The position numbers and the translations under genes were made by a program. Under the pieces are notes generated by a model that was not told the DNA's origin, ran no database searches, and saw only the letters and a list, made by a program, of their open reading frames with translations. A stretch of 64,000 bases of DNA, taken from positions 682,001 through 746,000 of the forward strand of contig NZ_LT906662.1 of the NCBI RefSeq assembly GCF_900205865.1, read 5' to 3'. This document shows, in pieces, positions 3,001 to 56,029 of this stretch (position 1 is its first letter; the number at the start of each line of letters is the position of its first letter). Source of the stretch: Thermoanaerobacterium sp. RBIITD. GTDB taxonomy: Bacteria > Bacillota > Thermoanaerobacteria > Thermoanaerobacterales > Thermoanaerobacteraceae.

Positions 3001-5722
3001 TAAATGGTAAAACTGCAGCTTTAAAAGCGGCCTTAAGCGTGGTTTCAATTCCACTATGGTTCGATTTAAATCTGTTCTTTCTCGTCTATAAGAAATTCCA
3101 TCAATATGTTTCAATTCCACTATGGTTCGATTTAAATATTTTAGACCTCCTTTTTTTCTTTGATTGTATCACAAGTTTCAATTCCACTATGGTTCGATTT
3201 AAATCAATTTAATCCAAATAATCAATATTGCGTCTTTGTCGTTTCAATTCCACTATGGTTCGATTTAAATCAGAAAAAGGGAAAAGGAAAGAAATAAAGG
3301 TTTAAAGTTTCAATTCCACTATGGTTCGATTTAAATATTAGGACATGCCATATTGCATGTAGATTTATCTATGTTTCAATTCCACTATGGTTCGATTTAA
3401 ATCAAGCTGTAAGGTGTTTATAGCACAGATCCAGACAGCGTTTCAATTCCACTATGGTTCGATTTAAATTCAGAAGATGTTGGCAATCTTGCGGTACGAA
3501 TATCAAGTTTCAATTCCACTATGGTTCGATTTAAATCTGCCGTTAGGGATAGACGAGCGACAAGTAGCAGAGTTTCAATTCCACTATGGTTCGATTTAAA
3601 TAACCCCCATAGAATTGTTTCCTGCCCAGAAAATTGTGTTTCAATTCCACTATGGTTCGATTTAAATCAAGCTGTAAGGTGTTTATAGCACAGATCCAGA
3701 CAGCGTTTCAATTCCACTATGGTTCGATTTAAATTCAGAAGATGTTGGCAATCTTGCGGTACGAATATCAAGTTTCAATTCCACTATGGTTCGATTTAAA
3801 TTCTCTCCCCTTTCTTCTTCTCATCCACCAGTTTTAAGTTTCAATTCCACTATGGTTCGATTTAAATTGTACCTTGATGAGTATTTCCCCATATTTCAGC
3901 TTCGTTTCAATTCCACTATGGTTCGATTTAAATCTTAAAGCCAAAGCCAATAAGGTCAAACCACCAATAGTTTCAATTCCACTATGGTTCGATTTAAATC
4001 CATCTCTTTCCACGTATAAGCACTCATGTATGGATTGTTTCAATTCCACTATGGTTCGATTTAAATAGGTATTCCTAGAGCTATAGAGATAGCGAGGGAT
4101 AATGTTTCAATTCCACTATGGTTCGATTTAAATCCAAGCGAATGTCAGGATTGGTTAAAAGAAAACAAAGGTTTCAATTCCACTATGGTTCGATTTAAAT
4201 GTAACTCATACAAAATTATTACCATTAACTGAAAAGGTTTCAATTCCACTATGGTTCGATTTAAATAAATCCAAAATATTTTAATGCTTCAACATAACTC
4301 ATGTTTCAATTCCACTATGGTTCGATTTAAATTTCCCAGTTCCATTATCACCAAAAACATTAACATTGGTTTCAATTCCACTATGGTTCGATTTAAATAA
4401 GGCGTCAACGATTATAGCTCGTTATCAATCAATGGGTTTCAATTCCACTATGGTTCGATTTAAATTCAAGCAGTTAAAAACAATTTACCTGATAATGGGA
4501 AGTTTCAATTCCACTATGGTTCGATTTAAATCAGTGGCAGCAAATGTGTTTACTGCATCAGCTACGGAGTTTCAATTCCACTATGGTTCGATTTAAATTA
4601 AGATTGAGTAGAATGTTGATAATGTCCAATCTGTGTTTCAATTCCACTATGGTTCGATTTAAATGCTAGTGATAAATTTATTGGATCTTTTTACGCTAAG
4701 TTTCAATTCCACTATGGTTCGATTTAAATTAAAATTTTCCCGCAATATTTGCATTTTTCAGGTTTGTTTCAATTCCACTATGGTTCGATTTAAATCTACC
4801 TATAAATGTGCATATCAACATTGCCGATTTGGGTTTCAATTCCACTATGGTTCGATTTAAATTTCTCTTTGATAATGAAAAAATTTAAATTTACTATCGT
4901 TTCAATTCCACTATGGTTCGATTTAAATTAAGTAAGGGGGAATATCTTTGTCTATTTTAAAAAGTTTCAATTCCACTATGGTTCGATTTAAATCACTACC
5001 ATTTAGGGTATGTGTTGTCCCAGGGCTTAAGTTTCAATTCCACTATGGTTCGATTTAAATAAGAAAATGGATATACATTTGTAAAACCGAGTGAATGTTT
5101 CAATTCCACTATGGTTCGATTTAAATTAATCCATTTTGTGAATCTTCAATTAATGCAAAGTAGTTTCAATTCCACTATGGTTCGATTTAAATGCTTTTGA
5201 AAATGGGGTTCCGATGAGTGAACATCCTTGTTTCAATTCCACTATGGTTCGATTTAAATAGTTGCCTGACGCAAATCCTTGTTGTACTGCTCAAGGTTTC
5301 AATTCCACTATGGTTCGATTTAAATGGTACAAAGGGCGGGACATAACCGACCAAATACCAAAGTTTCAATTCCACTATGGTTCGATTTAAATCTAAACTT
5401 TGCACTTTTCATCATCGTTTCATACTGTGTTTCAATTCCACTATGGTTCGATTTAAATTTAATATTTTATGATTTTGAAGTTTTTAAATATGATGTTTCA
5501 ATTCCACTATGGTTCGATTTAAATGTTATTTTCAAATTAAATACCCACAGAAAAAATCTGGTTTCAATTCCACTATGGTTCGATTTAAATTTCCCTTCGA
5601 AGCCCTAAATATATTGCCAAAGATATGTTTCAATTCCACTATGGTTCGATTTAAATCAACAATGTTACCTGTTACACTTTGAGGATATACAAGTTTCAAT
5701 TCCACTATGGTTCGATTTAAAT
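1..5722 (-). CRISPR. CRISPR array, subtype I-B repeat, 87 repeats / 86 spacers, clipped at window start
   Basis: A 30-bp repeat, in plus-strand reading beginning GTTTCAATTCC and ending CGATTTAAAT, recurs about every 66-67 bp. I counted 87 copies; the first is cut by the window edge (23 bases, 1-23) and the last is 5693-5722. All copies I read are identical. The 86 spacers are 35-38 bp, mostly 36 or 37. On the minus strand the repeat ends in ATTGAAAC, the usual 8-nt 5' handle of I-B crRNAs (family knowledge), so I place crRNA transcription on the minus strand, with the leader at 5723 and up and the newest spacers near 5692. Two adjacent spacers occur twice (3403-3506 and 3668-3771). The array continues upstream of this window. 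Confidence 0.99.
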
Positions 5723-13994: not shown

Positions 13995-14004
13995 ATTTAT
14001 GATG

Positions 14005-14136
14005 GTATCCATATGGAGCCATACATAAGCATTGAAATTTTAATAGTTATGCCTCGCCAGGATCATATGACCGGGACGGGAGATAAAAATTGGTGTATTA
14101 TGCCTTCCGTACGGAGGGTTTTTTTTATTATCTCCC
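14005..14136 (+). promoter_or_regulatory. Structured 5' leader of pantothenate operon (possible pan motif)
   Basis: The leader holds a hairpin around the palindrome TCCATATGGA (about 14010-14030), a G+C-rich hairpin with unpaired purines (about 14053-14083, loop ATCATATGA), and a terminator. GGGAGATAA (14078-14086), partly inside the second hairpin, can instead pair perfectly with TTATCTCCC (14128-14136) just past the terminator. Two small hairpins with bulged bases in front of pan genes recall the published pan RNA motif. I cannot confirm the match without a covariance model. Confidence 0.5.
14103..14126 (+). terminator. Intrinsic terminator in pan leader
   Basis: Stem CCTTCC / GGAGGG with a GTAC loop is followed by eight T. 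It lies before the first pan gene, so it would act as an attenuator. Confidence 0.8.
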
Positions 14137-55868: not shown

Positions 55869-55933
55869 AAAAAAGAAACCTTAATAAGACCAACAATTTT
55901 TCTATGAAATTGTTAATCCCATTAACGGTTTCT
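55869..55933 (-). terminator. Leader attenuator hairpin before glpP
   Basis: On the minus strand AGAAACC...TTAAT pairs with ATTAA...GGTTTCT, enclosing an inner AACAATTT / AAAATTGTT hairpin, followed by TTTTTT. It lies between the Pho-box promoter and glpP. It is the expected target for GlpP-mediated antitermination. Confidence 0.75.
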
Positions 55934-55975
55934 CTTTATCTCCAACCAAAAATTTATATCTACTTGTCATTTTTA

Positions 55976-56029
55976 ATAATACAAAAGAAATGTTATGTGG
56001 ATATTAAGTATATGTTAAGTTTATGTTAA
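55976..56029 (-). promoter_or_regulatory. Pho box (four PhoP half-sites) and promoter of glpP-ugp operon
   Basis: On the minus strand TTAACA, TTAACA, TTAATA and ATAACA start exactly 11 bp apart (plus-strand blocks 56024-56029, 56013-56018, 56002-56007, 55991-55996). This is the arrangement of Gram-positive PhoP binding sites (TTAACA repeats, 11-bp period). A -10 TATTAT (55976-55981) lies 9 nt downstream, so the repeats cover about -22 to -60. Confidence 0.75.

Follow-up and report, generated by a model that had tools for sequence, protein, structure and literature searches.

The ugp locus of the thermophile Thermoanaerobacterium sp. RBIITD carries a Pho box of the PhoP type and an attenuator of the GlpP type one behind the other. 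The best explanation of this anatomy, and in our view a probable one, is a two-step serial control in which PhoP would initiate transcription and GlpP would permit its elongation, in other words an AND gate. Within the window (the whole stretch of 64 kb that was analysed), all parts of the locus are read from the minus strand, in the order half-sites, -10, leader with its terminator, and glpP-ugpA-ugpE-ugpB. The sequence-only reading had already named the two regulatory parts and suggested the AND gate; for each part, an internal control and conservation in relatives now lend support.

In Bacillota, the PhoP box is made of direct TT(A/C/T)A(C/T)A half-sites with an 11-bp period, upstream of the -10. 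This consensus is that of Bacillus PhoP, independent of the present data, and was not fitted to them. Upstream of glpP, four TTAACA-like half-sites (TTAACA, TTAACA, TTAATA and ATAACA, 56029-55991, minus strand) indeed follow each other with an exact 11-bp period before a -10, just as had been read from the letters; this -10-like hexamer, TATTAT (55981-55976, minus strand), lies 9 bp past the last of them. The ugp promoter has this -10 and no good -35. The strict pattern TTAAYA(N5)x3 followed by WTAAYA has a single match in the 64 kb, and none in 100 dinucleotide shuffles. The same half-site array is present in the upstream regions of pstS and pstC of this genome, whose pst locus also encodes a histidine kinase of the PnpS type, which scores above cut-off, and a regulator resembling PhoB/YycF, and a weaker array is found upstream of a 5'-nucleotidase-like gene. 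Pho boxes have likewise been described as 11-nt direct repeats (PMC4415409).

The half-sites are conserved in relatives, a point on which the sequence-only reading had made its proposal depend. Across 14 divergent upstream regions (<70% identical), enrichment at period 11 reached z 14.8 for three half-sites and z 15.5 for four when compared to shuffles, and did not exceed z 3.1 at any other period between 7 and 16; the distance from the array to the -10 is also maintained in most relatives. Eleven leaders of canonical GlpP targets gave z 0.0 at period 11 against simple shuffles, and the array is therefore a property of the ugp-type operons. A loose Pho pattern allowing 2 mismatches showed no or barely any genome-wide excess over its reversed control, so that strong arrays alone are informative and the loose counts were not used. 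From its pattern and its sharing with the undisputed Pho genes pstS and pstC, we assign the array to the PhoP-type Pho boxes and predict that PhoP binds it. Further TTAACA arrays with the 11-bp period lie near a metallophosphatase-like gene, an FtsX-like gene and the gene of a large secreted protein (G000:C1:1108958-1109007 and 1120638-1122485, minus strand), which are possible extra Pho targets.

The second part is an intrinsic terminator, a long hairpin with a T-run (TTTTTT) at 55937-55869 on the minus strand, before glpP at the head of the ugp operon, and here too the earlier description holds. Its folding energy is -37.1 kcal/mol versus -16.0 kcal/mol for shuffles (z -7.3), and none of 200 shuffles was as good. 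RNAalifold returned no consensus pairs on a wide leader alignment because loop lengths differ, and arm pairing was therefore tested by script: of 18 divergent leaders, 17 have terminator arms that pair better than shuffles (p <=0.015), and as many as five types of standard pair occur at a single position. Just upstream, and overlapping the 5' arm of the terminator through its AACC, lies a GlpP-type leader element (GACAAGTAGATA...GGTTGGAGATAAAGAGAAACC, 55968-55927, minus strand). The leaders of glpD, glpA, glpK and glpF share with it the core GG(T/C)..GGAGA-N3-5-GGAGA..(A/G)CC, whose final bases form the first terminator arm and which can be abbreviated as GGT.GGAGA...GGAGA.ACC. An Rfam scan matched no family at the GlpP leader in the window; elsewhere in the window it detected a pan motif (RF01749, 48.2 bits, 13999-14083, plus strand).

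A leader model built from the eight closest leaders matched strongly just once in each of ten genomes of the family. In the nine that have a ugp-type glpP, the match precedes this gene or, in G004, lies in its vicinity. In this Thermoanaerobacter genome (L228 from 1501; C1:419290-422004), about 2.7 kb containing genes for a TIM-barrel-like protein and an ABC solute-binding protein separate the Pho box and leader from glpP, which retains a mere 3' leader remnant. The tenth genome, G019, a Thermoanaerobacterium relative, has lost the glpP-ugp operon and keeps an orphan Pho box and GlpP leader (L237:4397-4560, minus strand), which has begun to drift and now precedes an alcohol-dehydrogenase-like gene. 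A wider model also matched leaders in the neighbourhood of canonical glpP genes, namely those of glpD, glpK, glpF, glpA and a glycerophosphodiesterase-like gene, and in the genome under study the glpA operon shows the core on inspection, with its own terminator (GGCGGAGAAAATGAGAGCC). Since core and terminator recur at canonical GlpP targets, we consider the ugp leader a true GlpP-type leader, which predicts that read-through is controlled by GlpP.

It could be argued that the operon responds to phosphate alone, the hairpin serving either to terminate something located upstream or as an attenuator that is passive and independent of GlpP. A short GNAT-like ORF (110 aa, possibly truncated, 56401-56069, minus strand) does lie directly upstream of the Pho box on the same strand, and the leader element does not fold stably by itself. 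However, in relatives the hairpin likewise sits between the promoter and glpP, and the leader core is that of canonical GlpP target leaders; we thus hold a phosphate-only control to be very improbable. Farther upstream of the ugp locus are ORFs resembling a cobalamin biosynthesis cluster (63950-56466, minus strand).

In the RAT-type antiterminators of BglG, LicT and SacY, a short hairpin in the leader overlaps the terminator's 5' arm and is stabilised by the protein. In most leaders, the GG../..CC ends of the GlpP core are complementary, and in some they covary (GGTT/AACC, GGTC/GACC, TATGGC/GCCATA and TATGGT/ACCATA), a pattern that fits the hypothesis of a short antiterminator stem GGTT/AACC, exclusive with the terminator. 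On folding, this stem is not stable alone in the ugp leaders, and a stable antiterminator hairpin there is unsupported, whereas one is plausible in glpA leaders (-6.2 and -4.2 kcal/mol). Unlike the RAT-type proteins, GlpP belongs to an unrelated family, and the short stem of the ugp leaders is hypothetical. In genome G000, a canonical GlpP paralogue is found with glpF-glpK-glpA (L318:393-962 and 3444-3515, plus strand), and in its glpA leader the GlpP core comes with a stem of 6 bp (TATGGC/GCCATA).

The product of the first gene is an antiterminator of the G3P_antiterm family (PF04309, 200.9 bits versus a cut-off of 27). Its ORF had been opened at ATG 55842, which has no clear ribosome site, and the stretch from there to TTG 55737 is unconserved. 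GlpP of relatives starts (ATG/TTG)-K/R-K-[DE]..., the equivalent here being TTG 55737 behind AGGAGG. The true start is therefore probably this TTG (glpP, 55737-55096, minus strand) and the longer ORF too long, which places an untranslated leader of about 230 nt before the gene. In the window and two close relatives, 100-130 extra bases separate the terminator from glpP. This gap could harbour a second promoter (TTTATA-17-TATAAT, 55811-55783, 10 of 12 consensus positions matched), which would bypass the gate and provide OR logic or a basal supply of glpP and ugp. Nevertheless, a promoter scan gave 57 versus 56.3 in shuffles, no better than chance, and the gap is just 20-70 bases in most relatives. 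We rejected this promoter as a candidate and find such a bypass unlikely.

Behind glpP come a ugpA-like permease (55138-54197), a ugpE-like permease (54200-53367) and a ugpB-like substrate-binding protein (53341-51968), all on the minus strand and assigned by profile matches. Their top NCBIfam matches are PRK10561, PRK10973 and PRK10974, respectively; the Ugp models rank best, although all three proteins fall below the curated cut-offs of the E. coli Ugp equivalogs. The transporter is thus described as a ugp-type ABC transporter with UgpA, UgpE and UgpB homologues, and its substrate is a prediction from this homology.

The layout is not confined to this genome. A locus search with a very specific ugp-type GlpP peptide returned Thermoanaerobacteraceae only, and the wider spread comes from genome searches. 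In a 398-genome sample of the phylum, from which part of the GlpP loci were retrieved, one further glpP-ugp locus was found outside the family (L133), and a search with its GlpP within its own class uncovered dozens, in the order glpP-(HAD phosphatase)-ugpC-ugpA... In the resulting locus table, for which the Bacilli were drawn with a ugp-type query and are biased towards the glpP-ugp arrangement, 46 of 47 loci with the leader are ugp-linked, 5 are ugp-linked without a detected leader and 70 have neither. Recurrence of the layout in many distantly related Bacillota shows that it is a real, conserved design, and the pairing of PhoP-type and GlpP-type elements is common among the glpP-headed ugp operons of the sampled Bacillota.

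The GlpP proteins of these operons form a distinct group. Among 81 representatives placed in a tree, those of the ugp type make up one clade of 26 with support 100/100; most members carry both Pho box and leader, the leader being present in 22 of the 26 and, on inspection, also in L185. The clade is marked by HxE[KR], versus mostly HxD[LFM] in canonical GlpP, and the GlpP of the window reads HIEK at this site. It is related to the solved structures 3kts and 1vkf. Given this alteration of a conserved site, the ugp-type GlpP may respond to a ligand different from glycerol 3-phosphate, such as a glycerophosphodiester that has been imported or a product of it, in which case the second input of the gate would differ. 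The presence of a canonical GlpP paralogue in the same genome, and of a GDPD-like gene at the end of the operon in some Bacilli (top match glycerophosphodiester phosphodiesterase, below cut-off), would also accord with a changed ligand. However, most other conserved GlpP motifs are retained, the leader cores of ugp-type and canonical targets are nearly identical, and two members of the clade, L185 and L200, keep HVDL. We regard a different ligand as a reasonable minority view. Conversely, the canonical paralogue could act on the ugp leader too. More speculatively, and with rather low confidence, one may imagine a distinct GlpP subfamily that co-evolved with the Pho-box promoter and leader in Bacillota ugp operons as a dedicated phosphate-scavenging gate, its ligand preference changed to a glycerophosphodiester-derived signal instead of glycerol 3-phosphate, and insulated from the cell's canonical GlpP.

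The system is mostly explained by known parts. In B. subtilis, GlpP with glycerol 3-phosphate disrupts a terminator located directly downstream of the promoter, and glpT and glpQ are among the targets that it activates (PMC9604022), while GlpQ is induced by phosphate starvation via PhoPR (PMC6232261). PhoP and GlpP thus act there on the same operon, a precedent for dual control. The earlier suggestion that the pairing is unusual requires qualification, given this glpTQ case and the frequency of the pairing in the sampled glpP-ugp operons. B. subtilis GlpP serves several operons of glycerol metabolism (glpTQ, glpD and glpFK), whereas the GlpP of the divergent clade is encoded here within the very operon that it is predicted to control, that of a ugp-type ABC transporter. 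The E. coli ugpBAECQ operon encodes the same type of transporter and is a member of the Pho regulon with PHO boxes; however, its phosphate (PhoB) and carbon (CRP) inputs arrive via two separate promoters (PMC4415409), in contrast to the one promoter followed by an attenuator found here. In B. licheniformis, ugpE and ugpB change in a phosphate experiment, and no leader was found described in that report (PMC12676729). Searches of the open-licence literature likewise turned up no glpP-ugp operon carrying a Pho box, and a dedicated, autogenous and phylum-wide ugp version of PhoP/GlpP control appears undescribed in the literature searched.

In the serial control that we favour, a PhoP-type response regulator would bind the 11-bp repeats under phosphate starvation and initiate transcription. 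The transcript would meet the intrinsic terminator about 35-100 nt in and end there by default, unless GlpP loaded with glycerol 3-phosphate bound the leader element and blocked formation of the terminator. With glpP placed first after the terminator that its own product would control, read-through would yield more GlpP, a positive feedback. The output would be high expression only when a shortage of phosphate coincides with a supply of glycerol phosphate. We infer this logic, as well as the binding of both regulators and the nature of the ligand, from the anatomy of the locus.

The comparison of leaders has provided a core motif for GlpP leaders, and the split of the GlpP family into two clades makes their specificity comparable. 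The recurrence of the layout across Bacillota offers many natural variants for testing. The locus would be a clean example from nature of promoter-level control followed in series by attenuation of the RNA, by which an organophosphate importer may be made only when phosphate is lacking and its substrate is present.
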